Below the pieces are notes generated by a model. It did not search any database and had not been told where the DNA came from. It worked only from the letters and a program-made list of their open reading frames with translations. The translations under genes were made by a program, and so were the position numbers. This document shows positions 2 to 41,615 of a stretch of 64,000 nt of DNA, piece by piece. This DNA is from an uncultured Prevotellaceae bacterium (lineage in GTDB: Bacteria; Bacteroidota; Bacteroidia; Bacteroidales; Muribaculaceae), in NCBI GenBank assembly GCA_900320055.1, contig ONQS01000011.1:28085-92084 (forward strand), given 5' to 3'. Every line of letters begins with the position of its first letter. Position 1 is the stretch's first letter.

Positions 2-3000
2 GTTGCCTATGGTACTGCCAAGAAGACCTCCTACACTGGTTCGGCCGAGGCTGTATCCAACAAGAAACTGGAGTTGCGTCCTGTGACCGACGCTACCAAG
101 GCCCTCGAGGGTAACGTAGCCGGTCTGCAGGTTACCAGCGCATCGGGCCAGCCCGGTTCGTCGCCCAACATCCAGATTCGTGGTTACGGCTCTATCAACG
201 CTTACAGCACCCCGTTGTATGTTGTTGATGGTGCACCCTTTGACGGCAACCTGAGTTCAATCGCTCCCTCGGACATCGAGTCGATGACTGTCTTGAAGGA
301 CGCTAGTGCTGCCGCTCTGTATGGTGCCCGTGGTGCCAACGGTGTTGTGATGATCACCACCAAGAAGGGTGTTGAGGGCCGCAGCAACATCATGTGGCGT
401 TCGACCTTCGGTTGGTCATCACGTGCCACCAAGCGCTACCAGCATGTTGACCAGAAGGAGTATGTTCAGCTCGTGTATGAGGCTCTGCGCAACCAGGCTA
501 TTGACAATGGTAATAGCTGGAGTGATGCTGAGGCCATCGCCCGTGCCGGCCTGAGCGGCCAGTTGGGTGGCGAGCAGTACAACCCCTTCAAGAATTACAG
601 CTGGGATCAGTTGATTGACCCCGCTACTGGTTACGTTCGCGAGGATGCCAAGAGCGCCTGGGACGAGGACTGGTATGACAGCGTTATCCGCAAGAACGCC
701 TTCCGTCATGAGCACCAGTTGCAGGTGACCGGCGGTAGCGAGCACGCACAGTACATGATGTCGTTGGGTTACCTGAATGAGGACGGTATCCTGAAGACCA
801 CCAACTATGAGCGTTACACCGGCCGTGCCAACATCACGAGCCAGATCACTGACTGGTTGGGTGCTAACATCAACGCTTCGTTGGCCCACTCGGTAAGCAA
901 CTTCAGCGACTATGACGGTACCAGCACTTCTAACCCCTGGTACACCGCACAGTTCATCAACCCGCTGCTGCCTGTTTACTTGAAGGACATCAACGGTAAC
1001 ACCGTATATGACAGCGATGGTAACATCCAGTATGACTGGGGTGAGGCAACTCCCAATGGTACCCGTCCCGGTTCGTTGAGCGACTTCTCGTCGCTGGGTA
1101 TGCTGATGCTCGATAAGGCCGACACCAAGCGTGACGTTGCTGGCCTGCGCACCGGTCTGGTGCTGGGTAGCGACCTGGCCAAGTACGGCTGGCGTCAGGG
1201 CTTGAAGCTGGCTGTGAACTTCAGCATGGACTATGTGAACCGCAACTACATGCGCTACATGAACTCGCAGCACGGTAACCAGGCTAACGCCGGTGGTCTG
1301 CTGGAGAAAACCAATAGCCGCACCCAGAGCTACACCTTCAACCAGTTGCTGACTTGGGACCGCTCCTTCGGTGATCACACCATCGGCCTGTTGCTGGGTC
1401 ACGAGTGGTATGCTTACCAGTACAGCTACCTGCTGGCTGGCAAGACCAACCTGGTTGACGGCATCTTTGAGTTGCGTCCCGCAACCACACTGCTCGAGGC
1501 TGACTCTTATACCGACAATTACCGCATCCACTCATGGTTCGGTCGTGCCAACTATAACTTCGCTGGCCGCTACTTCCTGAGTGCTTCGCTGCGTCAGGAT
1601 GCTTCCTCGCGTTTCCACCCCGATCACAATAAGGGTACCTTCTGGAGCGTTGGTGCCAACTGGCGTGTATCTGGTGAGAAGTTCATGCAGAACGTGGGTT
1701 GGGTAAACAACCTGTCTGTAAAGGCCAGTTACGGTGAGCAGGGTAACGATATGCTCCAGACCTATTATGCATGGCAGTCACTGTATGACCTGAGCTACAG
1801 CAACGCTACCAACATCGGTGCGCTGATCTCTTCGCTCGAGAACCAGAACGTATCTTGGGAGAAGAGCCAGAACTTCAATGCTGGCTTCGACGCTATCCTG
1901 TTCAACCACCGCTTGCAGTTGAACGTTGACTTCTACAACCGTCTGACCAAGAACATGCTGCTTAACCGTCCCATGGCATTGTCGACCGGTTTCACCGGCT
2001 TCATGGACAACGTGGGCGACATGCGCAACCGTGGTGTTGAGGCTTCACTGCGCATCACCCCCGTCCGCACTGCCGACTTTGAGTGGAACATCACTGCAAT
2101 GGCTACCCACAACAAGAACAAAGTCATCAAGCTGACTAAGGAGGCTCCCGAGCTGATCAGCGGTGTTCGCGTGATCAAGGAAGGTATGCCCATCTACACC
2201 TATTATATGGCTAAGAGTGCCGGTGTTGACCCCTCGAACGGTCATTCACTGTACTGGGCATATGAGAAGGACGACGACGGCAACATGGTTCCTGGCACTG
2301 AGTATATCACCGATAGCTACTCGGTTGCTAACACCTGCAAGTACTACCTGGGCAGCCGTCAGGCTGACATCTTTGGTTCACTGGGAACTGACTTCAGCTG
2401 GAAGGGTCTGACCCTGAGCGTGCTGACTACCTATTCGCTGGGTGGCAAGGTTTATGACGGCCTGTACCAGAGCGATATGAACCTGTGGTACCTGAGCTCG
2501 ACCTGGAACAAGAACGCTATGCGCCGTTGGCAGAAGCCCGGTGACGTGACCGACGTTCCTCGCTCGACCATCGCTGAGTCGATTGCTGCCAACGACCGCT
2601 TCCTGATTGATGCTAGCTACTTCGCTATCAAGAACATCACTTTGGCTTACGCTCTGCCCAACAACTGGATCAGCAAGCTGGGTATGACCGGTGCCCGTAT
2701 CTTCGGTTCGGTCGACAACCTGGCTCTCTTCACCCACCTCGATGGTATGGATCCCCAGTACAACTTCAGTGGTGGTACCGATTATGAATACAGCCCCAAC
2801 AAGACCTACACCGTAGGTATCGAGCTGAACTTTGGTAAGGCATATGCCGCTCCTGCTCCCGCAGTGAACGTGAACGCTCTGAACAGCCAGATCAACGACC
2901 TGCGCGCTCAGCTCGCTGACGCTCAGGGTGCCGCTGCCGACGCCAACAGCCGTCTGGCTCAGCTGCAGGGTGACCTCGACGCCGCTAACCGCGCTCTGGC

Positions 3001-3388
3001 CAACTGCCGCAACGACCTGAATGCTGCCAAGAATGCCGCTCCCAAGGTGGTTGACAACAGCAAGCAGTACATGAACATCCTGGTTCACTTCCCCAAGAGT
3101 GGTACCGCAATCACTGCCGACCAGCGTGCCAACGTTGAGCGCGTGGCTGCTTATCTGAAGAGCCATCCCGAGGCAACCTGCGTTATCAAGGGTTATGCTT
3201 CGCCCGAGGGCAAGGAAGAGGTGAACATCAAGCTCGCTAACGGCCGTGCCGCCAGCGTGAAGGATATGCTCGTCAAGAAGTATGGTATCGCTGCCAACCG
3301 CATCAACGCCGCTGGCCAGGGTATCAGCAACATGTTTGACGAATTGAGCTGGAACCGTGTTTCCATTTGCGAAATCATTGTTAAGTAA
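2..3388 (+). CDS. SusC/RagA-type TonB-dependent outer-membrane receptor with C-terminal OmpA-like domain (5' end outside window)
   Basis: The gene is open from the left edge in frame 2 and begins inside the plug region (VAYGTAKK, then [10 protein letters not shown] and [10 protein letters not shown]), so the signal peptide, carboxypeptidase-like domain and TonB box lie outside. SusC proteins are 22-strand barrels that import glycans or peptides using TonB energy, with a SusD lid; the SusD gene follows directly. The barrel ends near nt 2850. The usual SusC would stop there, but this protein continues through an alanine-rich heptad coiled coil (about nt 2870-3040) into an OmpA-family domain (about 3050-3385: [39 protein letters not shown]). 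The extension has close relatives in the other two SusC genes of this window. The substrate cannot be told: no glycosidase or regulator gene is adjacent. Confidence 0.93.
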
Positions 3389-3518: not shown

Positions 3519-5066
3519 ATGAAAAAGATATTTAAATATTTGTTTATTGGGATGTTTGGCGTGCTCTGCCTCTCGTCATGCTCTAGCGACTTGCTGGAGA
3601 CCGAGCCCACCGACAAGATGTCGGGTTCAACCTTCATGAGCGACGCCACCAAGGCCCTCATCCCCCTGAACGGTATCTACCGCTCGATGTACACTGCTGG
3701 CTGGTCCACCACCGGTAACACTCACCAGTGCTTCGGTATCAGCGCCTATAACCTGATGGGCGAGGTCATGGGTGACGACTTCATCATGGGTGCCCAGGGT
3801 TCAGGCTGGTTCTGGTTCGACGCTGCCTATAATGTAAAGGGCCGTTTCACCAGCAGCTCATGGCGCAGCTATGACCTGTGGATGGCCTACTACACCTGGA
3901 TTGCTAACGCTAACTATATCATCGCTGCCGAGGAGACCATGGAAGGCTCCAGCGAGGATGTTGGCTACGTAATCGGTCAGGCTTATGCCATCCGTGCCTA
4001 CAGCTACTTCATGTTGGCACAAACCTTTGCACGCAACTACAACTTCAGCAACGATCCCTGTGTGCCCATTTACAATGAGCCCACTATGACCACCACCACC
4101 GGTCAGCCCCGCTCGACCGTGGCTCAGGTGTATGAGCAGATCGACAATGACATCAACAAGGCTATTGAGTTGCTGGCCAAGAGCCCTGCTCAGCGTCATC
4201 CCAGCCACATCAGCTATGCTGTGGCTCTGGGTCTGAAGTCCCGCATCGCCCTCGTCGAGGAGAAGTGGGGTGAGGCCCTGGACGCTGCCCAGAAGGCTAT
4301 CGCCGCCAGTGGCAAGAGCATTCAGACTGTTGATGCCAGCGCATTTGCTCCCAACAAGGCTAACTTCATCAACTCTGTTGGCCAGGGTAACGTGATGTGG
4401 GGTGCTCAGATCGTCAGCGATCAGGCTGGTATGTATGCTTCGTTGATGACCCACATGAGTGGCACCGCCCCCTATGGCGAGCGTGCTCCCAAGGAAATCT
4501 CAAGCTGGCTGTATGGCAAGATGCGTAGCACCGATGCACGTCGTGCTTGGTGGAATCCTGCCGAAGGCTACCTGCAGAAGAAGTTTGAGTTCTCCAACTC
4601 CCAGACCTGGGAAGCCGACTACATCTGGATGCGCGTTGAGGAGATGTACCTCAATGCTGCCGAGGCCGCTTGTATGAGTGGTAATGACGCTCTGGCCAAG
4701 GAGTACCTGATGGCTTTGATGAGCAAGCGTGATCCCAATTACAGCACCAACAAGACTGGTACCGCACTGGGTAATTTGACTACCGATGAGACCGGTTCGC
4801 TGCGCGAGGAGATCCTGATCCAGCGTCGTCTGGAGCTGTGGGGCGAGGATGGCCGTATCTACACTATCCGTCGTCTGCACCAGGGCTTCGTGCGTCCCAG
4901 CGAGTATGGTTGGCCCGATGGTCTGCTGCTGCCTACCCACCAGAAAGCTATGAAGGATCCCGCCAGCTACCTGTGGGTACTGACCATTCCTCAGGCCGAG
5001 TTTGACGGCAATGAGAACATGGACATTAACAAGGATCAGAACCCCGTTGGTGACTATCCCGAGTAA
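3519..5066 (+). CDS. SusD/RagB-family surface lipoprotein
   Basis: This 515-residue protein has a lipoprotein signal (MKKIFKYLF, lipobox LCLSSC, then SSDLLETEP) and the SusD N-terminal hallmark LLETEPTDKMS. SusD lipoproteins sit on the outer leaflet, cap the SusC barrel and bind the incoming ligand with a tetratricopeptide-rich fold. The C-terminal part contains the characteristic EEILIQRRLELWGEDGR segment of the family. It lies 130 bp after the SusC gene, so the two should form one uptake complex and one transcript. Length is normal for the family. The ligand is unknown. Confidence 0.94.
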   Translation: MKKIFKYLFIGMFGVLCLSSCSSDLLETEPTDKMSGSTFMSDATKALIPLNGIYRSMYTAGWSTTGNTHQCFGISAYNLMGEVMGDDFIMGAQGSGWFWFDAAYNVKGRFTSSSWRSYDLWMAYYTWIANANYIIAAEETMEGSSEDVGYVIGQAYAIRAYSYFMLAQTFARNYNFSNDPCVPIYNEPTMTTTTGQPRSTVAQVYEQIDNDINKAIELLAKSPAQRHPSHISYAVALGLKSRIALVEEKWGEALDAAQKAIAASGKSIQTVDASAFAPNKANFINSVGQGNVMWGAQIVSDQAGMYASLMTHMSGTAPYGERAPKEISSWLYGKMRSTDARRAWWNPAEGYLQKKFEFSNSQTWEADYIWMRVEEMYLNAAEAACMSGNDALAKEYLMALMSKRDPNYSTNKTGTALGNLTTDETGSLREEILIQRRLELWGEDGRIYTIRRLHQGFVRPSEYGWPDGLLLPTHQKAMKDPASYLWVLTIPQAEFDGNENMDINKDQNPVGDYPE

Positions 5067-17986: not shown

Positions 17987-18002
17987 GCTGTGAGTGAGAT
18001 GA

Positions 18003-19523: not shown

Positions 19524-19529
19524 AGCGTG

Positions 19530-19537
19530 CAAAATTA
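19530..19537 (-). promoter_or_regulatory. -7 box directly in front of the GH3 start
   Basis: TAATTTTG on the minus strand ends 6 nt before the ATG at 19523, predicting a leaderless or nearly leaderless mRNA. Confidence 0.6.
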
Positions 19538-19744: not shown

Positions 19745-19784
19745 AGGCAAGAAATATTTATTAACGCATTAAAACATACGCACT

Positions 19785-22454: not shown

Positions 22455-22482
22455 CGGCCACGCCGCGGGTGTCAACGTCACA

Positions 22483-22523
22483 CAGGGCGGGCAATTTCCC
22501 ATTAGTGGAGATTGCCCGCCCTG
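22483..22523. terminator. Bidirectional terminator between glycosyltransferase and nadK
   Basis: Perfect 13-bp arms CAGGGCGGGCAAT (22483-22495) and ATTGCCCGCCCTG (22511-22523). Confidence 0.8.
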
Positions 22524-22556
22524 CGTTGTTGTTGGCGTGTAGCCGTCAAGAGCGTC

Positions 22557-23423: not shown

Positions 23424-23428
23424 GCTTG

Positions 23429-23436
23429 CAAAGATA
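23429..23436 (-). promoter_or_regulatory. -7 box directly in front of nadK
   Basis: TATCTTTG on the minus strand, with 5 nt to the ATG at 23423. Confidence 0.62.
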
Positions 23437-23473
23437 CCTATTTTTTTGCTAAGTGTTGAATGTCTTGTGGATT

Positions 23474-25327: not shown

Positions 25328-25378
25328 GGGCTGGCTCTCTGGGTCGCTAGGATGGGTGGGCTGTAGGCAACAGATGGC

Positions 25379-25912
25379 CTAGAAGGTGAACAATGATGTC
25401 ACTTCGACGTCGGCAGGGAACACTTCGCGTCCGTGCAGGTCGGCCAGATCGCAGATGAAGTTGATGTAGACCTTCTTGGGATTCATCGATTTGACCAGTT
25501 CGTAGGCTGCCAGCATTGTTCCGCCGGTGGCGAGCAGGTCATCGTGGATGACTACCACGTCGTCGGGGGTGATGGCATCCTTGTGGATTTCGATGGTGTC
25601 GGTGCCGTATTCCTTGGTATAGGATTTCTGGATGACCTCGGCGGGCAGTTTGCCGGGTTTGCGCAGGGGCACGAAACCAGCGTTTAACTGGGTGGCCAGG
25701 ATGGCGCCGCCGATAAATCCGCGGGCCTCGATGCCGACCACCTTGGTCACGCCTGCGTCGCGGTACATTTCGGTCATGGCACGGGTCATGATTTGGAGGG
25801 CTTCAGGGTCCTTGAACGCGGTGGTCAGGTCTTTGAACTGAATACCGGGTACGGGAAAGTCAGGTACGTTGCGTACCACACTTTTTACTTTTGCTAATTC
25901 TTCGCTATTCAT
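25379..25912 (-). CDS. apt: Adenine phosphoribosyltransferase
   Basis: This 177-residue enzyme makes AMP from adenine and PRPP. The start is MNSEELAKVKSVVRNVPDFP; the family segment GIQFKDLTT, the EARGFIGG loop and the PRPP signature VVVIHDDLLATGGTM are all present. It ends close to 51 bp before uvrC and starts 44 bp after mnmG. The gap to mnmG carries a parS site. Confidence 0.97.
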   Translation of the reverse strand: MNSEELAKVKSVVRNVPDFPVPGIQFKDLTTAFKDPEALQIMTRAMTEMYRDAGVTKVVGIEARGFIGGAILATQLNAGFVPLRKPGKLPAEVIQKSYTKEYGTDTIEIHKDAITPDDVVVIHDDLLATGGTMLAAYELVKSMNPKKVYINFICDLADLHGREVFPADVEVTSLFTF

Positions 25913-25938
25913 TGTAAATCAGTAAGTTAGATGTTAAT

Positions 25939-25954
25939 TGTTTCACGTGGAACA
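25939..25954. other. parS centromere-like site 2 (between apt and mnmG)
   Basis: TGTTTCACGTGGAACA reads on the minus strand TGTTCCACGTGAAACA, the exact form of the classical Bacillus subtilis parS consensus. It lies 1,091 bp from site 1. Confidence 0.85.
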
Positions 25955-25956
25955 AG

Positions 25957-27834: not shown

Positions 27835-27840
27835 GATCGG

Positions 27841-28281
27841 TTATTTCAACAATGCGTTGTCAGGCAGAATGGCCAGGGCCTCGTTTTCGTGCTGCTCCAT
27901 GATTTCACGCTCACCAGGTCCCTTGTCGTTGATGCCACACAGGTGCAGCACGCCATGGATGATGACCCTCATGAGTTCGGTCTCGTAGGGGACATTGAGC
28001 ATCTTGGCATTGCTGCTGACGGTGTCTAGCGAGATGACCATGTCGCCGGCGATGTGCCTGGAGTTGGTGTAATCAAAGGTGATGATATCGGTGTAATAGT
28101 CATGTCCCAGAAATTCGCGGTTGGTCTGCAGGATGTACTCATCATCACAGAAGACGTATGTCAGACAGCCCACCTGCTGATGATGCAGGCGTGCCACCTC
28201 GACAATCCAGTCGCGCACCGCGGTCTCGTTGAGTCGCGGCATGTCGGCTTGCCCCTGGGTCATGTAGTTGATTTCGGTCAT
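27841..28281 (-). CDS. ybeY: rRNA maturation endoribonuclease YbeY
   Basis: This 146-residue enzyme takes part in 16S rRNA 3'-end maturation and ribosome quality control. The ATG at 28281 is chosen; the frame stays open to 28341, beyond the promoter box, so the longer form is unlikely. The zinc site reads HGVLHLCGIND (H109, H113, D119): the third histidine of the usual H-x3-H-x5-H motif is replaced by aspartate, while RNase family context (LGHDYYTDIITFDY) is intact. It is the first gene of the mnmG operon. Confidence 0.93.
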   Translation of the reverse strand: MTEINYMTQGQADMPRLNETAVRDWIVEVARLHHQQVGCLTYVFCDDEYILQTNREFLGHDYYTDIITFDYTNSRHIAGDMVISLDTVSSNAKMLNVPYETELMRVIIHGVLHLCGINDKGPGEREIMEQHENEALAILPDNALLK

Positions 28282-28308
28282 TGGCAGAACGCTTTGAAAA
28301 ACGGGAGA

Positions 28309-28316
28309 CAAAGATA
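28309..28316 (-). promoter_or_regulatory. -7 box of the ybeY-mnmG operon
   Basis: TATCTTTG on the minus strand, with a near -33 TTG at 28337-28335. The divergent region 28317-28565 between this box and the nfeD promoter shows no gene, RNA or repeat that I can support. Confidence 0.6.
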
Positions 28317-28565
28317 ACACATTATTTTGATAAACAAGCATAATTCCCCAAGTTTTGCTCGATGTGAAAGGCTAAAGAATGTAAAAATCCATTTTGGGAG
28401 GCTGGATGCGGCTTTTGCCACGAGGGCAGGATTTTCTGAAATATTCCCGTTTTGCGCAAAATCGCTGAAAAACAGCCCAAAACCGCATTTTAACCCGCTG
28501 AGAATTGAAAATTTCGGTGAAGAGTGGTAGACGGGTCAGGATTTTTTCAGAAAATTGGCATAAAA

Positions 28566-28597
28566 TTTGCATATTACATAATAAAAGTCTACCTTTG
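28566..28597 (+). promoter_or_regulatory. Promoter of the NfeD/SPFH operon
   Basis: TTTG (28566-28569), exactly 20 nt, TACCTTTG (28590-28597). The leader to the ATG at 28686 is about 85 nt. Confidence 0.75.
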
Positions 28598-28685
28598 ATG
28601 ATGCCAATGTAAGAGAGTTTTCTCCATCATGATGAAAGGTCATTTTAGAGTGTCGATTACCAACAATTAAAATATATCGGAGATT

Positions 28686-29138
28686 ATGGTACAGTTTTTC
28701 ACATCCAACGTTTGGCTCATCTGGGTTATCATTTCCATCTTGTGCCTCATCCTTGAATTGACTTCGGGTGATTTCTTCATTCTGTGTTTTGCCATCGGTG
28801 CCGCTGTTGGCGCTATCGTAGCCGGCTGTGGCCTGTCGCTGACCTGGCAGATAATCATGTTTGCCGTGGTATCGGCTTTGAGCCTGCTGCTGGTGCGCCC
28901 GGCCTTGCTCAAGAAACTTCACAAGCCGCATCGCGAGCGTCTGAGCAATGCCGATGCCATGATAGGGCAGGAGGGTAGAGTGAGCGAGCCCATCATCGCT
29001 CATGGCTATGGCCGTGTTGCTATCGATGGCGATGACTGGAAGGCAGTCAGCATCGACGGCGGCCCTATCGAGAAAGGCGCGCGTGTGCGTGTGGTGAAAT
29101 TAGACAGCATCATTCTCACTGTCGAGGCTGTCGACTGA
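28686..29138 (+). CDS. NfeD-like membrane protein
   Basis: This 150-residue protein has an N-terminal membrane part of three close segments (VWLIWVIISILCLIL, FFILCFAIGAAVGAIVAG, WQIIMFAVVSALSLLL) and a C-terminal OB-fold domain (about 90-150: AMIGQEGRVSEPIIAHGYGRVAI, seen as IGQEGRVSEPI and GYGRVAIDGDDW). NfeD proteins pair with SPFH/stomatin proteins in membrane microdomains; the SPFH gene follows 70 bp downstream. This is the short class without a ClpP-like protease domain. Confidence 0.92.
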   Translation: MVQFFTSNVWLIWVIISILCLILELTSGDFFILCFAIGAAVGAIVAGCGLSLTWQIIMFAVVSALSLLLVRPALLKKLHKPHRERLSNADAMIGQEGRVSEPIIAHGYGRVAIDGDDWKAVSIDGGPIEKGARVRVVKLDSIILTVEAVD

Positions 29139-30461: not shown

Positions 30462-31595
30462 ATGATCAACGTATTCCATATCGTATCCAACAAGCAATGG
30501 ACGGGTGCCGAACAGTATACCTATGACCTGGTGGAAAGGCTGCGCAACGACCCTGACTTCTATGTCGAGGTGGTGTGCCGCAAGCATCCCAATGTGCTCA
30601 AGCAATACCGCCGCCTCGAGATCCCCATCTCGATACTGCCGCTGAAGGGTGTGACCGACATCGACTCGCCGGTGCGATTTGCCCGGCTGCTGCGCAAGGG
30701 CCGCAACATCATACATGTGCACAGTTTCAAGGACGCCTTTATGGCCGTGATGGCGCGCCGCATCAGTGAGAACCGCGACACCCGAGTGGTGGTGAGTGTG
30801 CACGGGGTGTATAAGCCCAAGAGCAACTACATGTACACCAAGTTATATAAGTCGATCGACTGCTTTGTGTTCTCGTCCGACATGGCCCGTGAGGCTTTTC
30901 TGGGCAAAGCCAAGAAGCCGTATGCCGACCGTGCCGTGGTGCTGCGCGACAGCGTGTGCGACAGCCAGATCGGCACTCAGGTGCCCGATTTGCGCCGCGT
31001 GTTGGGCCTCGACAGCCATCAGGCGCTGATCATGTACCATGGCAAGATTACGGCCGAGAAGGGCATAGAGGCGCTTCTGGGCGCGTTAACCCATGTGGAT
31101 AGGGCAAAGTACCATCTGGTCATTATCGGCGAGGGACAGCCCAAATACAAGGCAAAAATCAAAGGTTTCATTGTCGCTGCCGGCATGGTGCACAATGTGT
31201 CGCTGCTGGGCTTCAGGGACAACATCCTGGAATACCTGCGTCAGGCCGACTTCGGTGTGCTACCGTCGATACAGCCTGAAGCGCTGGGTATCAGCAACTT
31301 GGAGTATATGATGGCAGGTAAGGCCCACATCGCCAGCAACAATGGCGCCCAGCCTGAGTATGTCCACGATGGCGTGAATGGCCTGCTGGTTCCCCCTGGC
31401 GACGAACAGGCGTTGACGACAGCCATCAACCAGATGCTCAACGATACGGCCAGCCGCAGCCGCATGGGCACGCAGGCGCAGCGCGATTTCAAGGAGCATC
31501 TGGATTACCCCACGTTCTATGGCAAGATGACCGACCTGTATCGCTCGCTGCTCGAGACCGCTCCCGTTGTGGACATTGAGGACGGACCGGAGTAA
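30462..31595 (+). CDS. Glycosyltransferase family 4
   Basis: This 377-residue GT-B enzyme has an N-terminal acceptor domain beginning MINVFHIVSNKQWTGAEQYT and IIHVHSFKDAF, and a C-terminal donor domain (MYHGKITAEKGIEAL, VIIGEGQPKYKAK, SLLGFRDNILEYL). The E-x7-E pair is present in EALGISNLEYMMAGK, and GLLVPPGDEQAL follows. Donor and acceptor are unknown. A weak -7 box (TATCTTCG at 30404-30411) precedes it. It is a single gene; no other polysaccharide genes are adjacent. Confidence 0.92.
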   Translation: MINVFHIVSNKQWTGAEQYTYDLVERLRNDPDFYVEVVCRKHPNVLKQYRRLEIPISILPLKGVTDIDSPVRFARLLRKGRNIIHVHSFKDAFMAVMARRISENRDTRVVVSVHGVYKPKSNYMYTKLYKSIDCFVFSSDMAREAFLGKAKKPYADRAVVLRDSVCDSQIGTQVPDLRRVLGLDSHQALIMYHGKITAEKGIEALLGALTHVDRAKYHLVIIGEGQPKYKAKIKGFIVAAGMVHNVSLLGFRDNILEYLRQADFGVLPSIQPEALGISNLEYMMAGKAHIASNNGAQPEYVHDGVNGLLVPPGDEQALTTAINQMLNDTASRSRMGTQAQRDFKEHLDYPTFYGKMTDLYRSLLETAPVVDIEDGPE

Positions 31596-31642
31596 CTGAA
31601 CGGGCCGGAGTAGGGATAGCCAGCGACTTCATATCAACCGAA

Positions 31643-31683
31643 AAACAACCGCCGGGGCTGTGGTAGCCTCGGCGGTCGTTGTT
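31643..31683. terminator. Bidirectional terminator between glycosyltransferase and the second SusD gene
   Basis: AACAACCGCCGGGGCT pairs with AGCCTCGGCGGTCGTTGTT with small mismatches, loop GTGGT. Confidence 0.72.
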
Positions 31684-31701
31684 ATTGGATAGAGTGGGGG
31701 A

Positions 31702-33576
31702 TTACTCTTGGTCGCTGTCCCACCATACGGGGATGGTCCAAGCGTCGTCCTGACGGTTCCACATCACTTCCTTGCCTTCACCGTCGGTCATGCGGGCGCC
31801 GGGAACCTGGCTGCCGATGGCCTGCAGGTTCTTGCTGTTGTAGTTGTACTCGTGCGAGCACTGGCGCCAGCGGCGATACTGCTTGCCCTCGGGGATGGCC
31901 AGCATAGCGGCAGCCACCTTGTAGTGGTAAGCGGGAATCGACCAACCGAAGAAGATGTTGGGATCGAAGTCATAGCGGCGCATATCGTTCCAGATCTCAT
32001 AGGAGAACATCAGGGCGATGCGCTTCTGAGTCAAGATGTGACCCAGGGTCAGTTGACCCTGGGTACCGATACCGGTGTTCACGAAGTTGTCGATGGCTTC
32101 CTGAGTCATCGGGGTGAACGACGGGCAGTCGGCGAGGCTTGCATCCTCAGCAACCCATGCTTTGAGTTTCTCGTTCATGAGTTCGCAACTAGCCTTAACA
32201 CCAGCCTTGTAGGCATTGTAAGCGCCAGCCTTGTCACCCTTCTTCAAGAGCACCTCGGCGCGGATGAAGCAGCACTCGGCATAGGTGCCGATGTAGGTGG
32301 GCGAACTTACGCGGGTGTAGAACGTACCTGACTCGGCCGACTGGAACTTACCGCTACCGGCGCGGCAGTACAGCAGGCTTGGGTTAGCGAAGTAACCCTT
32401 GCAGTCGCTGGTCTCCTCAACATAGACGGTGTCACCCAGGCGGGCCTCGTTGGCGCTGTTGATGTACCAACTGTTGGTGCTCTCATTGAACATGGCGCGC
32501 AGGGGACCACCAGCGCTGTTGATGTCGCTGGACATGTCAACGCCCAGTGAGCGGCGCCAGTTACCCACCCACTTCACGTCGGTGCGGCTGTTCTCATCCT
32601 TGTTGGGGCTGTAAGCCCAGGGGATGATGTGGTCGGCACGGGGATCCTCGACGCCATAACCTGCAAAGTTGGTGAGGTTGTCATAGAGCATCTTGGTCAC
32701 CATGTAACCCGAGTTCATACCGCAAACCGAGAACAGGGGCGAGTAGTCGACGGGCTCATCCCAACCCAGCACGTCGTGGGTCGAACCATTGTCGTCGGTG
32801 TGGTTGACGATGGTGTTGTCGGCATTGCTCTGCATAGCCTTGTCGAGGCAGCGCAGGATCTCGTCGGCATCATACTTACCGTCCTTGTAACTGCCAGCGC
32901 CCTTCTTGTTCAACTTGTTGATCCAGCGGGCCTTCAGCATATAGGCAAGTTTGATCCACTTGTTCAGGTCACCCTTGTTCCAGAAGTCGCCAGCGGCCAG
33001 CGTGGGCAACTTGGGATCCTGGCTCTGACCCTTCTCGAGGCACTCGATGGCCTTGTCGATGGTCTCCAAGCAACCCAGGTAGATGGTCTTGCCCGTGTCA
33101 TACTCGGGAGTAGCGGGCTCGGCGGCTGCCTGAGTATAAGGCATCTCACCATAGAGGTCGGTCATGGCCATGAAGCCATAGGCCTTGATCAGATAGCCAG
33201 CGCCGGCAAACTGCCAGTTCTCGGCAGCCTCAGCCTTGGCAATCATGTCGGGCACGTTGGCATAAGCGCCGACAAACCACCACTGGTAGGTTGTGGTTAC
33301 CTGGCCGTCAACGGGATACCAGTAGGATACATGCCAGTAGTTACCGCCACCGTTGTTACGGGTCCAGTCACCCATGGCCATGGTCGTGCGCCATGCACCG
33401 AACTGCAGGCCACTGTTCGTGTAGAATTCAATGTGGGCCAGTCGCTGGTCGTAGGTCGTGGACTCGGCCGAAGGGCTATCGGGGTCAACGTTCACGTCAA
33501 GCCAGTCGTTGCAAGAGGTCAGCGACAACGCCATCACTCCCAGACCGCACAGTATAATTGATTTGAAAAGTTTCAT
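31702..33576 (-). CDS. SusD/RagB-family surface lipoprotein (SusD-like 2 type)
   Basis: This 624-residue lipoprotein is longer than the usual SusD (about 500-550). The signal MKLFKSIILCGLGVMALSL with lipobox LTSC is almost identical to that of the SusD at 41.7 kb, although the mature proteins differ. N-terminal NDWLDVNVDPDSPS and C-terminal LTQKRIALMFSYEIWNDMRRYDF mark the family branch often called SusD-like 2. It follows its SusC gene by only 28 bp. It should cap the SusC barrel on the cell surface and bind the ligand, which is unknown. Confidence 0.93.
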   Translation of the reverse strand: MKLFKSIILCGLGVMALSLTSCNDWLDVNVDPDSPSAESTTYDQRLAHIEFYTNSGLQFGAWRTTMAMGDWTRNNGGGNYWHVSYWYPVDGQVTTTYQWWFVGAYANVPDMIAKAEAAENWQFAGAGYLIKAYGFMAMTDLYGEMPYTQAAAEPATPEYDTGKTIYLGCLETIDKAIECLEKGQSQDPKLPTLAAGDFWNKGDLNKWIKLAYMLKARWINKLNKKGAGSYKDGKYDADEILRCLDKAMQSNADNTIVNHTDDNGSTHDVLGWDEPVDYSPLFSVCGMNSGYMVTKMLYDNLTNFAGYGVEDPRADHIIPWAYSPNKDENSRTDVKWVGNWRRSLGVDMSSDINSAGGPLRAMFNESTNSWYINSANEARLGDTVYVEETSDCKGYFANPSLLYCRAGSGKFQSAESGTFYTRVSSPTYIGTYAECCFIRAEVLLKKGDKAGAYNAYKAGVKASCELMNEKLKAWVAEDASLADCPSFTPMTQEAIDNFVNTGIGTQGQLTLGHILTQKRIALMFSYEIWNDMRRYDFDPNIFFGWSIPAYHYKVAAAMLAIPEGKQYRRWRQCSHEYNYNSKNLQAIGSQVPGARMTDGEGKEVMWNRQDDAWTIPVWWDSDQE

Positions 33577-33604: not shown

Positions 33605-36600
33605 TTACTTCACGATGATCTCGCAGATCGAAACACGGTTCCAACTCAGTTCGTCGAACATGTTGCTGATACCCTGGCCAGCGGCGGTGATGCGGTTGGC
33701 GGCGATACCATACTTGTTGACGAGCATATCCTTCACGCTGGCGGCACGGCCGTTAGCGAGTTTGATATTGTTGTCCTTGTTGCCCTCGGGCGAAGCGTAA
33801 CCGTTGATGGTGCACTTGGCCTCGGGATGGCTCTTCAGGTAGTTAGCCACGCGCTCAACGTTGGCACGCTGATCGGCGGTGATGGCGGTCTTGGCTACGG
33901 GGAAGTGAACCAGCACGTTCATGTACTTGGCGCTGTTGTCTACCACCTTGGGAGCGGCGTTCTTGGCAGCGTTCAGGTCGTTGCGGCAGTTGGCCAGAGC
34001 CTTGTTGGCAGCAGCCAGGTCGTTCTCGAGTTGAGCGATGCGGGCGTTGCTGGCATTCTGAGCGTTGGCGAGTTGGTTGCGCAGGTTGTTGATCTGGCTA
34101 TTGAGGTTGTCCAGTTCAACATTGTTGACGCGCGCGGGAGCAGCATCGTCAGTGCCGAAGGTCAGGTTGATACCCAATGCATACTGGCGGGTAGCGGGAA
34201 CGCCGCAGTAGTCAAAGCCGACTGACGACGAACCACCGATACCGGCACCCGAAGCAGCAACCTCGGGATCACCATCATAGTTGGTGAACAGTACCAGGTT
34301 GTTGGCCGAAGCGGTGATAGCGGCACGCTTGATATACTTGGTCTTAGCCAGGAAACTACGGGGAACATCATAGGTCAGTGAGATGGTGCGCAGGCGCAGG
34401 CTCTTCACGTAGGTGATCCAGTTGCGTACCTCATAGTTGTAAGCACCGGTGTAGTAGTTCTTGATGATGTTGTAACCACTGGTCTCGTTGCCGTTGAACA
34501 TGTAGTTCTGGTCGGCCTTCCAGGTGTTGGAAACAGGATTGCCGTCAGCATCCACACCCTCGATGGTGAGGGTCTCGTTGCGCCAGTCGCCGCTGAGTGC
34601 GCTCACGCCGCTCATCGACATGGCATACTTGGTGCCGTTGAAGACGTCGCCGCCCCAGCGGAACTCCCACAGCATGTTGAAGGTCCAGTTCTTGAAGAAG
34701 GTGAAGGTGTTGTTCCAACCACCCTGCCACTTGGCCTCACGGTCGCCGACCTCATAGGCCTTGCTGTCGGTGGTGGGGAAGCCGTTCTTGTCAAGGATAA
34801 GTTTACCCTCGCTGTTGCGGTTCCACTTGGTACCGTCGATACCCATGAAGTTGCCATGGTTGTAACTTGCAGCCTTGGCGCCGCCATACTGTACGTCGGT
34901 CAGGTACATAACGTCGATACCGTTAACCAGGTCACCCACGGTGCCACGGTTGCCATAGACGTTGATACCGGTTTCCCAGATGAAGTTCTCGTGCTGGATG
35001 GGGGTACCACTCAGGCTGATCTCAAGACCCTTGTTGTAAACGTCACCAGAGTTAACCGAGCAGAAGATGTAACCGGTCGACTGCGGGCCACGGGGTTGCA
35101 GAATCAGGTCAAACGAGTTGTTGGTGTAGTAAGCCACATCAAATTTCAAGCGGTTCTGGATGAAACGCAACTCCAGACCAACCTCGGTCGAGCGGGTGCG
35201 CTCGGGCTTGAGGTAGGGGTTACCGCGGGTCCAGGAGTTACCCAGACCGACCATGCTCTCCAGATAGGTGCCTACAGGCCACAGATAGGTGTTGGTCACG
35301 TAGGGGTTGGTACCCTTACCTACCTCGGCCCAACTGGCGCGGATCTTACCGAAGGAGAACCAGTCGGGCAGGCTCTCACGGAAGAGTTCGGTGAAGGCGA
35401 TAGCGCCGCTCACGCTGGGATAGAAGTAACTCCAGTTGTCCTTGGGCAGGGTCGAATCCCAGTCGTTACGGCCGGTAACGGTCAGGAAGATGGCGTTGCG
35501 CCAGTCGATGCGGAACTCACCGAAGGCCGAAACCATGCGCTTCTTGCTGCTGCCGTGCGAGAACTTCTTGTCGGCATCGCTGGCGTTCTCATAACTGAAG
35601 AAATCAGGCACACCGAAGTTCCAAGCCGACTCATAGTCGCGGCGGGTCTTGGTATAGTCGGTCGAGCCACCCAACATCAAGTTGATGTTGAAGTCACCGA
35701 ACTGCTTGTTCCAGTTCGACATCAGGTTGTTGCTCAGGTAGCGATACTTGTACATGTTGTCGCTCAACATACCACGCTGCCAGATCTGCTTGATGGCGCC
35801 ACCAGGAGCGATCTCGTTGTGGCTCTGGGTGGTATAGGAGTCAACGCCCATGCGGTAACTCAGCCACCACCAGTCAAACAGATCCCACTTCACGTTGAAG
35901 TTGCCGGTGAAACGCTCGGTGTCATCGGTCATCTTGTTCTTGTTGACAATCCAGTAGGGGTTGTCGCGCTCGTCCCAGGGCTGGAACTGGTCACCGAACA
36001 TGCGATAGCGCGTGCCGTCCTCGTTGAGGTAGTGGCGCATGTCATCGCTGGGAGCCCAGTTGTAGGCTGCATACAGCGCACCCGTACCGCTGGAGCCGTA
36101 CAGAGCGGCACCGGTCAGAGTCTTGGTGGTGCGTGCGTCACTGTAGGCAGCATTGGCGCCGAAGGTGAAGCGGCCCACCTTCTGCTCACCGTTGAAGCGG
36201 AAGGTCGTCTTGGTGTAGCCGGTGGTGGGAACAATACCGTCCTGATCGTAGAATGAACCGCTCAGGAAGAAATTGTTGTTCTTGGTACCGCCGCTAACGC
36301 TCAAGTTGGTGTCCCAGATGATACCCGTGTCGAAGAAGTTCTTCAGGTTGTCATAGAAGGGGACATTAGCCTTGGGGCCCCATGAGTTGTAACTGTCGTC
36401 CTTGATGTCAAGGCCGGTCCAAGCGCCATCCTTGTACATATCGGTCATGTAACCGCGGATGTACTGGTTCTGGGTCTTGGGCAGGTCTTTTACCATCGAG
36501 GCGATCATCTTACCCGAGAAACTGATCTCGGTGTGACCTTCTTTACCCTTCTTGGTGGTGATCATCACAACACCGTTGGCAGCACGGCTACCATACAGAG

Positions 36601-37342
36601 CCGATGCGGCCGGGCCCTTCAGGATCGACATGCTCTCGATATCCTCGGGGTTGATATCCATCACACGGTTGGATGAAGTGGTTGCACTGTTCATCATACC
36701 GTCAAATGCGGAGTTGCCCACGATACCTGCCGAGTTGTCATAGATGACACCATCCACAACAAACAGAGGCTGAGAGTCGCGGTTCTCAGCAACCGACGTA
36801 CCACCACGCAGGATGATCTGTGCGCCCGAACCGGCGGCACCCGACGACTGGGTGATGTTCACACCAGCGATCTTACCCGACAGCGAGTTGATGGCGTTGG
36901 CGCTCTTGTTACGCATCAGTTCCTCGGCCTTGAGGTCGTCGACGGCATAACCGAGCGACTTCTTGTCCTTGCGGATACCGAGTGCGGTTACAACAACCTC
37001 GTCGAGGACTTGGTCATTGGCCTGCATGTTGATGTCCATGTCGCCGCTACCCACGGTTACCTCCATGGGCTTGCTGCCGATGTAGGACACGACGAGCACG
37101 TCTCCTCGGTTGGCGATGATTGAATACTTGCCGTCGACATCGGTTGCGGTACCGCGGTTGGTACCCTTGACCTTAACGGTCGCGCCGATGAGGGGCTCAC
37201 CTTGGGCGTCACGTATGACGCCAGTAACTTTGTTGGCTTGGGCAACAGCAGTGAAACCCGTCGTGGTCTGACTCGACGTCATCCCTACGGGCACGCCACT
37301 TGCGATTGCCAGTGCTGCCAACAGCGCTAATTGTTTTTTCAT
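33605..37342 (-). CDS. SusC/RagA-type TonB-dependent receptor with C-terminal coiled coil and OmpA-like domain
   Basis: This 1,245-residue receptor starts at the ATG at 37342 (a GTG at 37348 is in frame). Order of parts: signal peptide; carboxypeptidase-like domain (VTGVIRDAQGEPLIGATVKVKG in parts, TNRGTATDVDGKYSI); TonB-box region VLDEVVVTALG; plug (IINSLSGKIAGV-like, QIILRGGTS, LFVVDGVIYDN, DIESMSILKGPAASALYGSRAANGVV in parts); barrel to about residue 1070; heptad coiled coil (LNSQINNLRNQLANAQNA, nt about 33960-34130); OmpA-like domain ([48 protein letters not shown]; nt about 33608-33950). The OmpA addition is about 180 residues more than an ordinary SusC. Pair partner: the SusD 28 bp downstream. 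Confidence 0.95.
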   Translation of the reverse strand: MKKQLALLAALAIASGVPVGMTSSQTTTGFTAVAQANKVTGVIRDAQGEPLIGATVKVKGTNRGTATDVDGKYSIIANRGDVLVVSYIGSKPMEVTVGSGDMDINMQANDQVLDEVVVTALGIRKDKKSLGYAVDDLKAEELMRNKSANAINSLSGKIAGVNITQSSGAAGSGAQIILRGGTSVAENRDSQPLFVVDGVIYDNSAGIVGNSAFDGMMNSATTSSNRVMDINPEDIESMSILKGPAASALYGSRAANGVVMITTKKGKEGHTEISFSGKMIASMVKDLPKTQNQYIRGYMTDMYKDGAWTGLDIKDDSYNSWGPKANVPFYDNLKNFFDTGIIWDTNLSVSGGTKNNNFFLSGSFYDQDGIVPTTGYTKTTFRFNGEQKVGRFTFGANAAYSDARTTKTLTGAALYGSSGTGALYAAYNWAPSDDMRHYLNEDGTRYRMFGDQFQPWDERDNPYWIVNKNKMTDDTERFTGNFNVKWDLFDWWWLSYRMGVDSYTTQSHNEIAPGGAIKQIWQRGMLSDNMYKYRYLSNNLMSNWNKQFGDFNINLMLGGSTDYTKTRRDYESAWNFGVPDFFSYENASDADKKFSHGSSKKRMVSAFGEFRIDWRNAIFLTVTGRNDWDSTLPKDNWSYFYPSVSGAIAFTELFRESLPDWFSFGKIRASWAEVGKGTNPYVTNTYLWPVGTYLESMVGLGNSWTRGNPYLKPERTRSTEVGLELRFIQNRLKFDVAYYTNNSFDLILQPRGPQSTGYIFCSVNSGDVYNKGLEISLSGTPIQHENFIWETGINVYGNRGTVGDLVNGIDVMYLTDVQYGGAKAASYNHGNFMGIDGTKWNRNSEGKLILDKNGFPTTDSKAYEVGDREAKWQGGWNNTFTFFKNWTFNMLWEFRWGGDVFNGTKYAMSMSGVSALSGDWRNETLTIEGVDADGNPVSNTWKADQNYMFNGNETSGYNIIKNYYTGAYNYEVRNWITYVKSLRLRTISLTYDVPRSFLAKTKYIKRAAITASANNLVLFTNYDGDPEVAASGAGIGGSSSVGFDYCGVPATRQYALGINLTFGTDDAAPARVNNVELDNLNSQINNLRNQLANAQNASNARIAQLENDLAAANKALANCRNDLNAAKNAAPKVVDNSAKYMNVLVHFPVAKTAITADQRANVERVANYLKSHPEAKCTINGYASPEGNKDNNIKLANGRAASVKDMLVNKYGIAANRITAAGQGISNMFDELSWNRVSICEIIVK

Positions 37343-37781
37343 ACGCACTTACTTTAAATTTTTAAAAAAATTGAAATTTAATGACTATCATTAATTTTGT
37401 CGAAATTTCGAATGTCAAGGTAACATGATATCAGATTCCAACTCGGGCAGCGGCCACTGCATAGCAGTGAGATGCCCTCATTTGAAAGGCAAATTTGCAA
37501 ATAAAAATTAATCTGACCAAAAGTTTAGACAAAAAAATGTGATGTATTGACCAATTCTGGTAAGTAAAAGGCCATTTTTTATAATTCAAGTACGGATTTT
37601 TGTGGTTTTTAACATTTGTATTTGTAAAAAGAGCCCGTTTTTTTGGCTATTTCAAAAAAAATGTTGAATTTTGCACCTTGTTAAAAAATATAAAACTCTA
37701 ACCTTTGTGTGAAGGGTTAGAATGCGGTAAAAGAAAAACTTTAGAATTATCAACTTAATATTAACAAATTTAAACGTGCTT
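37343..37781. promoter_or_regulatory. Divergent control region of two SusC/SusD pairs
   Basis: This AT-rich 439-bp gap separates two outward-facing susC genes. For the right gene, CTTG (37677-37680), 18 nt, and TAACCTTTG (37699-37707) form a probable promoter. For the left gene no exact TAnnTTTG is seen. A stem-loop with GGGCA/TGCCC (37445-37449/37473-37477) around CACTGC/GCAGTG (37456-37461 and 37465-37470 approximately) lies in the left leader. No sigma/anti-sigma or hybrid two-component gene is next to either pair. Confidence 0.5.
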
Positions 37782-40700
37782 ATGAAAAGACATCTAGTTC
37801 TTTTGGGCGCATTGATGATGCTGTGCGGTACAGGCTACCAGGCACAGGCAACACCCGCGCCCCAGGTGACGGCCAGTTCCGCCACCAGCATTGTGACAGG
37901 CCGTGTCGTCGATGAGCAGGGAGAACCTGTGATCGGCGCCAGCATTGTCGAGGTAGGAACGACCCGTGGCACATCGACCGATGTGGACGGTAACTTCTCG
38001 TTTAAGGCTAGCCCTAACGCAAAACTTCAGGTTTCGTTTATCGGTTACAAGACCGTGACGCAGCGTGCCGCCAACGGCATGCGCGTGGTTCTGGCTGAGG
38101 ATAACGCGAAACTCGACGAAGTCGTTGTCGTAGGTTACGGTACGCAGCGCAAGGCCAACCTGACCGGTGCTGTGAGCAACGTGGAGGTGAGCAAGGTGCT
38201 CGAGTCCAAGTCGCAGACCGACGTGGCCAAGTCGCTGCAGGGTGCCGTGCCCGGCCTGACCATCTTGAACACCAATGGTGGTATCGATGAGGAGGCTTCG
38301 GTCGTGATCCGTGGTATCGGTACGCTGTCCAACAGCGGTGTCTCTACCCCGTTGTACATCGTTGACGGTGTTCCCACCGACAACCTGAGTTACCTGAACA
38401 CCGCCGATATCGAGAGCATCAGCGTCCTCAAGGATGCTGCCTCGACCTCGATCTACGGTACGCGTGCAGCCTTCGGTGTGATCCTGATCACCACCAAGAC
38501 CGCCCACGTCAAGGACAACGTGAAGGTGCAGTACAACAACAACTTCGCTTGGAGCCAGGCTACCACACTGCCCGACTATCCCAACGTACCCACCCAGGTG
38601 GGCGCCCTTAACGACGTGAACAAGCGCATGGGTCTGGAGTCGGAACTCTTCGGTATGTATCTGGACAGCGAGCAGTTCACCCGTGGCATGAACAACTGGA
38701 TTGCCAAGCATGGTGACACCAAGGCCAAGTATCGCGAGATGATCTATGGTGATGACTATGATGACTATGGCTACTATGCCAACTGGGATGTGCCCGGCAT
38801 CATCTTCAACAACCACGCTCCCTCTCAGAGCCACACCCTGAGTGTGACCGGTAATTCGGGCCGCGCCAACTTCTACACCTCGGTAGGTTACAGCCAGAAG
38901 CAGTCGTTGATGAACTTCAACCCCGACAAGGTGAAGAAGTATAACGCTACCGCCAACCTGTCTGTCAAGGCTACCGACTGGTTGGAGATCGGTACCCGCA
39001 TCGCCTACAGCGACAAGGAGTTTGACTATCCTTACCTGCGCAGCGGCACGTATCAGTACCTGTGGCGCTGGGGTTCGTTCTTCGGCCCCTACGGCTACTT
39101 TGTTAACCCCGATGACGGCAAGCAGTATGACGGCCGCACGATGATCGGTTACCGCAACACTGGCGGTGACTCGTTCACTCGCGTGGACAACCTGCGTCTG
39201 GGTGGCTTCATCAAGGTCGACCTGAGCCATGGTCTGACCTTCAATGGTGACTACACCTTCATCAAGAACAATATGCGCTATAAGGGTGTGGGCCTTCCCG
39301 CCGAGATCTACAACACTTGGGGTCTTGCTCCCAAGGGACCGACGTTGCTCTCGACCACTACCTTTATCGAGACGAGCCGCAGCCATTATCAGAACCAAGT
39401 GGCTAACGCCTACTTCAACTACAAGGCCAGCATCCGCGACATTCACAACTTCAACCTGATGGTTGGTGCCAACGTGGATAAGGATGACTATGAGTACCTG
39501 TACTACGAGCGTCACGACCTGCAGGATCTGAACATGCCTGAATTGGCTCTTGCCAACAGTGACTACAGTTATACGCACCGCCACACCCATAAGGGTTCGG
39601 CAGGCTTCTTCGGCCGTATCAACTATGACTACAAGGGCATCTGGTTGCTCGAGTTGAATGGACGCTACGACGGTTCGAGCAAGTTCCCCGCCAAGGACCA
39701 GTGGGCCTTCTTCCCCTCAGGATCGATTGGCTGGCGCATCAGTGAGATGTCGTTCTGGAAACCCATCAAGAACACCATCAGCAATGCCAAGATCCGCGCA
39801 TCGTATGGTGTGATCGGTAACCAAGAGATCGGTACCAACATGTTCCTCGAGACCATGGCCAAGCAGACCAACTCTGTCTACTGGATGGGCACCGGCAGTT
39901 CTCGCTATGACTACTTCTCGGCTCCCAAGTTGGTTTCTTCGTCCCTCACTTGGGAGAAGATCCATACCACCAACGTCGGTGTTGACCTGGGCTTCTTCAA
40001 CGGCCACTTGAACGTGACCGCCGACTGGTACCAGCGCGACACTAAGGACATGCTGGCTCCGGGTAAGGCTATGCCCGCAGTGCTGGGTGCTACCCCCGCC
40101 TGGGAGAACGCAGGTAGCCTGCGCACCCGTGGTTGGGAGTTGACCATCGACTACCGCAACCGCTTCGGTGAGGTTGACTTCTATGCAACTGCCAACATCA
40201 GTGACTACAAGACCAAGGTCACCGAGTGGGACAGCAACAACATGATCAACACCAACTACTCTGGCAAGGAGTATGGCGAGATCTGGGGCTTTGAGACCGA
40301 CCGCTACTTTGACTTCAACGACTTTAACGCCGACGGTACCTACAAGCAGGGTGTTCCCGATCAGACCAAACTGCAGTCTGGCACCTTCGTTTATGGCCCT
40401 GGCGACATCAAGTTCAAGGACCTGAATGATGATGGCGTGATTGATTGGGGTAAGGGTACTCCCGAGGATCACGGTGACCTGAAGCGCATCGGTAACTTCA
40501 CCCCGCGCTATCAGTACTCGCTGCGTCTGGGCGCCGCTTGGCGAGGCTTTGACATCGACTTCTACCTGCAGGGTGTGGGCAAGCGCGACATGTGGACCCA
40601 GTCTGCATTCGTCATGCCCTTCATGCGCGGTGCTGACGCTATCTACAGCAATCAGACCAGTTACATCACCGAGGCCGACTATGCCGCTGGCAAGATCGAC

Positions 40701-41615
40701 CAGAGTGCTGACTTCCCCCGCATGTGGGGTGGTGGTGCCGGCCGTGGCCGCGCATCGAGCGACATCCTGGATCTGGGTTGCTACAACTTCTATCCCCAGA
40801 CCAAGTATCTGGTTAACATGGCTTACCTGCGCATGAAGAACATCACCGTAGGTTACACGCTGCCGCAGCACATCACCCGCAAGGCCCTGATCGAGCGCCT
40901 GCGCATCTATGCTTCGACCGACAACCTGTTTGACATCATCAACAATAGCAATGGCACGGGTCTGGATCCCGAGATCAACACCGGTGTAGGCAGTTACGGT
41001 AACGCCGTTTGGGGCCGTACCGAGCCCATCATGCGCTCCTACAGCGTAGGTCTGCAGTTGACCTTCGGTAGCAGCAGCCACAGTGCTGTTGCCGTCAGTG
41101 GCGACAACAGCGCCCTGAACGCCCAGATCAACGACCTGCGCGCTCAACTCGCCGATGCCGAGAACAGTTACAATGCCCGTCTGGCCGACCTCCAGAACCA
41201 ACTCAACGCTGCCAACAACCGCAACAGCCAGTTGCAGAAGGATCTGAACGACTGCCAGAAGAGCAAGAGCAACATGATCGACAAGTCGTTGCAGTACATG
41301 ACCATCCTGGTTCACTTCCCCGTGAACAAGACCGCCGTGAGCGCCGATCAGCAGCCCAACGTGGAGCGCATCGCCGCTTACATGAAGAGCCACCCCGAGG
41401 CCAACTGCACCATCAACGGTTATGCCTCGAAGGACGGCCCCGCCGACCACAACATCCAACTCGCTAACGGCCGCGCCGCCAGCGTCAAGGATATGCTCGT
41501 GAAGAAGTATGGTATCGATGCCAAGCGCATCAACGCCCAGGGTCAGGGCATCAGCAACATGTTTGATGAACTGAGTTGGAACCGCGTTTCGATTTGCGAG
41601 ATTATCGTGAAGTAA
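37782..41615 (+). CDS. SusC/RagA-type TonB-dependent receptor with C-terminal coiled coil and OmpA-like domain
   Basis: This 1,277-residue receptor starts at the ATG at 37782; a GTG at 37776 is also in frame. It has a signal peptide (MKRHLVLLGALMMLCGTG), a carboxypeptidase-like domain (VTGRVVDEQGEPVIGAS, TRGTSTDVDGNFSF), a TonB-box region (LDEVVVVGYGTQRKANLTGAV, seen as LDEVVVVGYG), a plug (DVAKSLQGAVPGL, VVIRGIGTLSNSG, PLYIVDGVPTDNL) and a barrel ending near nt 41070. A coiled coil (nt about 41110-41260: [17 protein letters not shown]) and an OmpA-like domain (nt about 41275-41612: [36 protein letters not shown]) follow. The plug is of a different subtype from the neighbour receptor, yet the OmpA tail is nearly the same. 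Confidence 0.95.
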   Translation: MKRHLVLLGALMMLCGTGYQAQATPAPQVTASSATSIVTGRVVDEQGEPVIGASIVEVGTTRGTSTDVDGNFSFKASPNAKLQVSFIGYKTVTQRAANGMRVVLAEDNAKLDEVVVVGYGTQRKANLTGAVSNVEVSKVLESKSQTDVAKSLQGAVPGLTILNTNGGIDEEASVVIRGIGTLSNSGVSTPLYIVDGVPTDNLSYLNTADIESISVLKDAASTSIYGTRAAFGVILITTKTAHVKDNVKVQYNNNFAWSQATTLPDYPNVPTQVGALNDVNKRMGLESELFGMYLDSEQFTRGMNNWIAKHGDTKAKYREMIYGDDYDDYGYYANWDVPGIIFNNHAPSQSHTLSVTGNSGRANFYTSVGYSQKQSLMNFNPDKVKKYNATANLSVKATDWLEIGTRIAYSDKEFDYPYLRSGTYQYLWRWGSFFGPYGYFVNPDDGKQYDGRTMIGYRNTGGDSFTRVDNLRLGGFIKVDLSHGLTFNGDYTFIKNNMRYKGVGLPAEIYNTWGLAPKGPTLLSTTTFIETSRSHYQNQVANAYFNYKASIRDIHNFNLMVGANVDKDDYEYLYYERHDLQDLNMPELALANSDYSYTHRHTHKGSAGFFGRINYDYKGIWLLELNGRYDGSSKFPAKDQWAFFPSGSIGWRISEMSFWKPIKNTISNAKIRASYGVIGNQEIGTNMFLETMAKQTNSVYWMGTGSSRYDYFSAPKLVSSSLTWEKIHTTNVGVDLGFFNGHLNVTADWYQRDTKDMLAPGKAMPAVLGATPAWENAGSLRTRGWELTIDYRNRFGEVDFYATANISDYKTKVTEWDSNNMINTNYSGKEYGEIWGFETDRYFDFNDFNADGTYKQGVPDQTKLQSGTFVYGPGDIKFKDLNDDGVIDWGKGTPEDHGDLKRIGNFTPRYQYSLRLGAAWRGFDIDFYLQGVGKRDMWTQSAFVMPFMRGADAIYSNQTSYITEADYAAGKIDQSADFPRMWGGGAGRGRASSDILDLGCYNFYPQTKYLVNMAYLRMKNITVGYTLPQHITRKALIERLRIYASTDNLFDIINNSNGTGLDPEINTGVGSYGNAVWGRTEPIMRSYSVGLQLTFGSSSHSAVAVSGDNSALNAQINDLRAQLADAENSYNARLADLQNQLNAANNRNSQLQKDLNDCQKSKSNMIDKSLQYMTILVHFPVNKTAVSADQQPNVERIAAYMKSHPEANCTINGYASKDGPADHNIQLANGRAASVKDMLVKKYGIDAKRINAQGQGISNMFDELSWNRVSICEIIVK

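Follow-up and report, generated by a model that had tools for sequence, protein, structure and literature searches.

An OmpA-like tail on the SusC importers of one Muribaculaceae genus, a candidate tether to the cell wall

Bacteroidota take up many large nutrients through SusCD complexes, and their outer membrane must be held to the cell wall. From our analysis of a 64,000-nucleotide stretch of DNA from an uncultured Prevotellaceae bacterium placed in the Muribaculaceae (assembly GCA_900320055.1, contig ONQS01000011.1; the whole stretch is called the window), we describe three SusC genes in which the barrel is followed, in the same chain, by a linker, a coil and an OmpA-like domain. Our preferred reading, drawn from sequence and given a probability of roughly 0.57, is that a fused SusC would be an importer and a wall tether together, with a periplasmic stalk, retention from vesicles and sharing of the TonB load.

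Three SusC genes with a fused tail

An earlier note on this DNA had named three SusC genes with a coil and an OmpA-like domain; all three are present, with Pfam OmpA and TIGR04056 matches over the cut-offs, and their coordinates are correct, the strand, which it left unstated, being minus for the middle gene (the plus frame has stops). The genes, their tails and their partners are given below, with the limits of the OmpA domains converted from protein positions to window coordinates.

2..3388, plus strand: SusC class A (P0002), truncated at its 5' end by the window edge; the barrel runs to residue 944 and the tail follows
2834..3385, plus strand: class A tail (linker, coil, OmpA domain), Pfam part 3089-3331
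3519..5066, plus strand: SusD partner of class A (SusD-like_3, SusD_RagB)
31702..33576, minus strand: SusD partner of class B (SusD-like_2)
33605..37348, minus strand: SusC class B (P0003), 1247 aa if begun at the GTG, with an ATG at 37342
33608..34156, minus strand: class B tail (linker, coil, OmpA domain), Pfam part 33662-33904
37782..41615, plus strand: SusC class C (P0001), 1277 aa, in divergent orientation to class B
41067..41612, plus strand: class C tail (linker, coil, OmpA domain), Pfam part 41316-41558
41723..43444, plus strand: SusD partner of class C (SusD_RagB, SusD-like_3)

All three proteins matched the SusC/RagA family TIGR04056 at 645-811 bits (cut-off 368), the TIGR04057 signature at 61-69 bits (cut-off 46) and Pfam OmpA (PF00691) at 48-52 bits (cut-off 27.2). 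The TIGR04056 match stops at the last Phe of the barrel, which is residue 944 in P0002, 1064 in P0003 and 1095 in P0001, and the part that precedes the OmpA domain is this SusC match and not a small 8-strand barrel. In the assembly the class A gene has an open frame of 1238 aa (L007), and an adjacent SusD gene lies downstream of each of the three fused genes by Pfam. The C-terminal 24 residues are identical in all three proteins, and the P0003 tail is 82% identical to that of P0002 and 64% to that of P0001. The barrels are mutually distant, with BLAST segments 27-34% identical, apart from a 52% segment made up largely of tail. The hydrophobic period of the coil is 3.48-3.56 across the tails, and a signal as strong was reached by 29 of 2000 shuffles for P0002, 87 of 2000 for P0003 and 327 of 2000 for P0001; by this test the heptad coil is fair in P0002 and P0003 and weak in P0001.

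The genome of the window holds nine OmpA domains and 21 plug matches, 12 of the latter in frames of at least 900 aa. The tail is present on 3 of these 12 frames, and no tail-like extension was found in the nine tailless TonB-receptor frames. Another SusC-like gene in the same genome (L094, G000:C34) has an in-frame TAG and a longest open stretch of 910 aa, and is either a broken gene or an assembly error. The genome also encodes a standalone, porin-like OmpA of 412 aa (L004:772-2010), which ends in the same module, is 65% identical to the P0003 tail and has a shorter coil than the fused tails. The tail therefore did not replace OmpA, as the earlier note had suggested it might; that suggestion is rejected, since a standalone OmpA accompanies the fusion in this genome and in most of the other fusion genomes counted below.

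Spread of the fusion

Within the genus, the tail module was found at E <= 0.001 in 100 of 101 genomes, clearly in 95 and weakly in five (best E 1e-5 to 1e-9). By hand counts among the matches listed, the fusion is present in at least 38 of the 101 genomes, one of which (G027), with a 417-aa frame, was assigned by score. Of these 38, 36 also have a standalone OmpA, including four partial frames of 168-205 aa assigned by score; none was found for G029 and G060 among the matches listed. The fusion was likewise seen in 73 of 73 named loci retrieved (best 80 of 184 matches), which are mostly metagenome-assembled genomes (MAGs), several of them from ruminant gut, labelled Muribaculaceae, Prevotellaceae, Porphyromonadaceae or Bacteroidales. 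Such recurrence across genus genomes and named loci argues that the fusion is not due to chance.

Outside the genus we searched with this tail module only, which a strongly divergent OmpA domain or a weaker tail would escape; the family, phylum and second-family sets were samples of larger groups, and every match was covered for the sets of 151 and 395 genomes. No importer-sized frame with the module was found among the matches listed for 397 family genomes (to about E 2e-53), nor among those listed for 53 multi-copy genomes of 13 other genera (to about E 6e-14; longest frame 526). The sample of 395 phylum genomes gave no importer-sized frame at E <= 1e-20, with three other matches in frames of 384-389. 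In a second family (a sample of 151 genomes, 89 of which matched at E <= 1e-15) no genuine fusion was found, and ordinary frames reached 465. Two long frames in this family were set aside: one of 2,894 aa that carries the module arises artefactually from bases read as N, and one of 739 aa belongs to a normal OmpA porin whose frame runs on. The domain-architecture check proposed in the earlier note thus places the SusC-OmpA fusion in one genus and nowhere else among the matches listed, and on this search the fusion appears clade-specific.

Barrel classes and tailless relatives

Judged by the last strand, there are four classes of fused barrel, namely A, B and C of the window and a class D which was not seen in the window's genome; they account for 21, 23, 19 and 13 of 76 tails, respectively. 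Relatives that lack the tail were found among 12 sister genomes without the fusion. For class B they occur in 8 of the 12, at 64-79% identity and with one partial sequence (four fusion genomes were searched too); for class C in 8 of the 12, two at 75-76% and six at 50-51%; and for class A in 6 of the 12 at 65-68%, with one more at 37%. All 12 tailless sequences that we examined end at the barrel, with Phe in 11 and Leu in one, and the class B tailless orthologs end one residue before the start of the tail. In one tailless genome (G046) the A, B and C genes lie on a single contig, with B and C divergent as in the window.

In a tree of the barrels (24 fused sequences, 12 tailless sisters and six of the nine tailless frames of the window's genome), classes A, B and C each group with their own tailless sisters, and D has no tailless sister in the set. 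The fused or tailless state needs six changes on this tree, and one tailless sequence is nested among the fused class B; as it is a quick tree with a long-branch warning, only its shallow groups count. Class D looks like a presence/absence cassette, because in genome G081 the gap between the class B SusD gene and a glycosyltransferase gene is about 7.3 kb longer and contains a fused class D SusC, while in the window (31595-31702) these two genes adjoin.

Peptidoglycan contacts and the proposed tether

The OmpA part of the tail is under purifying selection: its ratio of nonsynonymous to synonymous substitution rates (dN/dS), as the median of pair ratios, is 0.11-0.17 by class, and that of the barrels is 0.12-0.22. 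As a ratio of medians, the values for A to D are 0.12, 0.16, 0.14 and 0.15 for the OmpA part and 0.18, 0.18, 0.21 and 0.11 for the barrels (frames of at least 1200 aa; n = 17, 19, 17 and 9).

The contacts of such a domain with the wall are known from relatives. The passages on PorE describe side-chain contacts of its OmpA_C-like domain by Asp576, Asn584 and Arg591, together with the backbone NH of Asp542 and others (PMC7192894), and those on Acinetobacter baumannii OmpA name Asp271 and Arg286 as two contacts (PMC12108004). We counted residues in 75 complete fused tails and 39 standalone OmpA proteins in the register of PorE, excluding cut tails (L037 and eight others). The equivalents of Asn584 and Arg591, at the site for diaminopimelic acid (DAP), are invariant in all 75 fused tails with the spacing of PorE. 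Wall anchoring by the tail is plausible on these residues, and the DAP pocket would be changed rather than ruined.

Under the reading of importer plus tether, the tail would form a periplasmic stalk reaching the peptidoglycan, as the last strand of the barrel would end in the periplasm, as it does in OmpA. The earlier note's placement of an OmpA-type domain on a coil after the SusC barrel, like the periplasmic part of OmpA, agrees with our analysis, and descent of the tail from OmpA is suggested by the tail tree given below. Each fused importer would then act as transporter and envelope tether together, keeping SusCD complexes in the cell-bound outer membrane instead of being shed in vesicles, and sharing load during TonB pulling. 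OmpM is described as joining uptake and tethering (PMC10628300), and the OmpA-type BT_0418 of B. theta as retained in the outer membrane and absent from vesicles (PMC6222051).

Several observations weigh against this reading. In all 75 fused tails Ser replaces the equivalent of Asp576, and a Pro comes directly after the contact Phe, at the place of Asp542 (a mapping that rests on that Phe); none of the 39 standalone OmpA proteins has this Pro. With two known contact positions altered, the tail probably holds the wall less firmly than canonical OmpA does, or in a differently tuned way. The class D tail is no more constrained than its barrel (0.135 vs 0.119). Codon adaptation, a weak point in favour of the reading, is 0.77-0.81 in fused SusC, 0.65-0.78 in nine tailless SusC and 0.83-0.88, a strong bias, in the tail, yet the median for the ribosomal genes that built the index is just 0.698 and most SusC genes exceed it, so that the index says little about expression. 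A tether is not lacking, since a standalone OmpA is present anyway. The earlier proposal that the tail fixes the position of the transporter is weakened by a report that the immobility of E. coli OmpA does not depend on its wall-binding domain (PMC3637615). Retention in the outer membrane needs no tail either, since the plain TonB receptor BT_2817 is also retained in the vesicle study that covers BT_0418 (PMC6222051).

An unlikely but serious alternative is that the tail no longer holds peptidoglycan and acts as a periplasmic stalk which pairs importers or docks a partner: SusC and SusD form a SusC2D2 dimer, the two SusC of which the coil would zip together, and the altered OmpA pocket would bind another ligand or protein. 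The Ser and Pro substitutions speak for it, and twelve columns separate the fused tails from the standalone OmpA of fusion genomes, although several of the fused-tail letters in those columns also occur in the standalone OmpA of genomes without the fusion; the longer coil of the fused tails also fits. The invariant Asn and Arg of the DAP site argue the other way. Moreover, Ser replaces the DAP-binding Asp in 36 of the 39 standalone OmpA proteins sampled from the family and order (L004, L114-L151), so that this variant is older than the fusion and did not arise with it. Five other OmpA-domain proteins of the window's genome retain Asp, as judged by eye. No study of an OmpA variant with Ser for Asp was found in the literature searched, and its being common to most family OmpA sampled raises the question of what such domains bind.

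Origin and exchange of the tail

In a tree of 55 of the 75 fused and 26 of the 39 standalone tails, built on only 112 columns, all fused tails form one clade (100/97), whose sister group is the standalone OmpA of genomes with the fusion (jointly 100/99). The tails of B, D and A are scattered within it (10, 6 and 3 changes), and those of C form one group. As one tail clade sits on four distantly related barrels, the simplest history would be a single graft from the lineage's own OmpA, followed by exchange of tails between neighbouring SusC genes. In a tree of OmpA, the 15 sampled fusion genomes form one group with G073 and G032 (100/100). These two genomes (L173, L174), lying within the fusion clade, have only a standalone OmpA among the matches listed, by loss or by incomplete assembly.

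The clustered locus would favour the exchange of tails between SusC genes. Tails within a genome are slightly more alike than expected overall (0.8398 vs 0.8333; 4 of 2000 permutations), which is driven by the B-D pairs (nucleotide identity 0.935 vs 0.884; 0 of 2000 permutations, five pairs). Gene conversion among all tail classes was considered and rejected, the A-B (186 of 2000), A-C, A-D, B-C and C-D pairs not being significant. The synonymous rate (dS) of the OmpA part is below that of the barrel, clearly so in classes A-C, which may reflect recombination or codon selection.

Conceivably, the tail could have spread free of benefit, carried by gene conversion between clustered SusC genes and with no function selected. 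Copies on one contig within 50 kb (e.g., G016, G029, G054, G081 and G089), the likeness of the B-D tails and the low dS of the OmpA part speak for such a spread. We consider it improbable nevertheless, as the OmpA part has a dN/dS of only 0.11-0.17, the codon bias of the tail may itself account for the low dS, and the tail has been kept across at least 38 genomes and four barrel classes. An artefact of assembly joins, or a read-through giving a clipped or unfolded tail, is very improbable. In its favour, the genome assembly comprises 73 contigs and most of the named loci come from MAG contigs; against it, the in-frame junction is identical across many independent assemblies and a SusD gene follows the fused SusC in the window, G081 and G016.

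Returning to the reading of importer plus tether, we tentatively propose, at somewhat below even odds, a portable OmpA-derived tether that would move between SusC importers by recombination within the locus, so making several importers wall-coupled, as an independent Bacteroidota counterpart of OmpM. The fusion and its tailless orthologs, up to 68% (A), 79% (B) and 76% (C) identical, are a natural experiment on wall coupling, and their comparison bears on TonB-driven import, on the loss of importers in vesicles and on envelope strength.

Other genes of the window

We scanned 20 other genes of the window with Pfam (16028-29003 and the part after 61920 left out); three had no match, and no glycoside hydrolase family was found among these 20. 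A scan for promoters yielded no usable result. A 683-aa protein at 58063-60114 has an unusual combination of Big_2 repeats, a type I dockerin and an FGE-sulfatase domain, and a Fic/DOC family protein with a C-terminal helix-turn-helix is encoded at 60580-61920.

Comparison with known systems

The nearest solved SusC structures are BT_2264 (5fq6) for P0003 and 8aa4 for P0001 and P0002, with RagA (6sli) a close second for P0002. These have a plug and barrel homologous to the fused SusC and a SusD partner in common with it, and we know of no solved SusC/RagA importer with a domain after the barrel. No SusC-OmpA fusion was found in the open-licence literature searched, nor in the passages covered of PMC11481396 and PMC8636109. 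OmpA/OprF-type porins, such as the genome's own 412-aa OmpA and BT_0418, share the order of barrel, coil and OmpA domain; unlike the fused SusC, they have a small barrel, are not TonB importers and lack the Pro after the contact Phe. PorE of Porphyromonas gingivalis has a Bacteroidota OmpA domain whose Asn584 and Arg591 have equivalents in the tails, but it is described as a lipoprotein, with Asp576 and Asp542 where the fused tails have Ser and Pro (PMC7192894).

The closest in idea is OmpM/SlpA of Terrabacteria, which, like the fused SusC, joins a nutrient channel, a coiled-coil stalk and a wall-binding domain in one chain, as described in PMC10628300. OmpM is a diffusion porin with an N-terminal SLH domain (PMC10628300), whereas the fused SusC is a TonB-dependent importer with a C-terminal OmpA-like tail, and no SLH domain was matched by Pfam in P0001 and P0003, the two proteins scanned for it (P0002 begins beyond the window edge). 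The fused SusC is thus like OmpM in idea and is not a member of its family.

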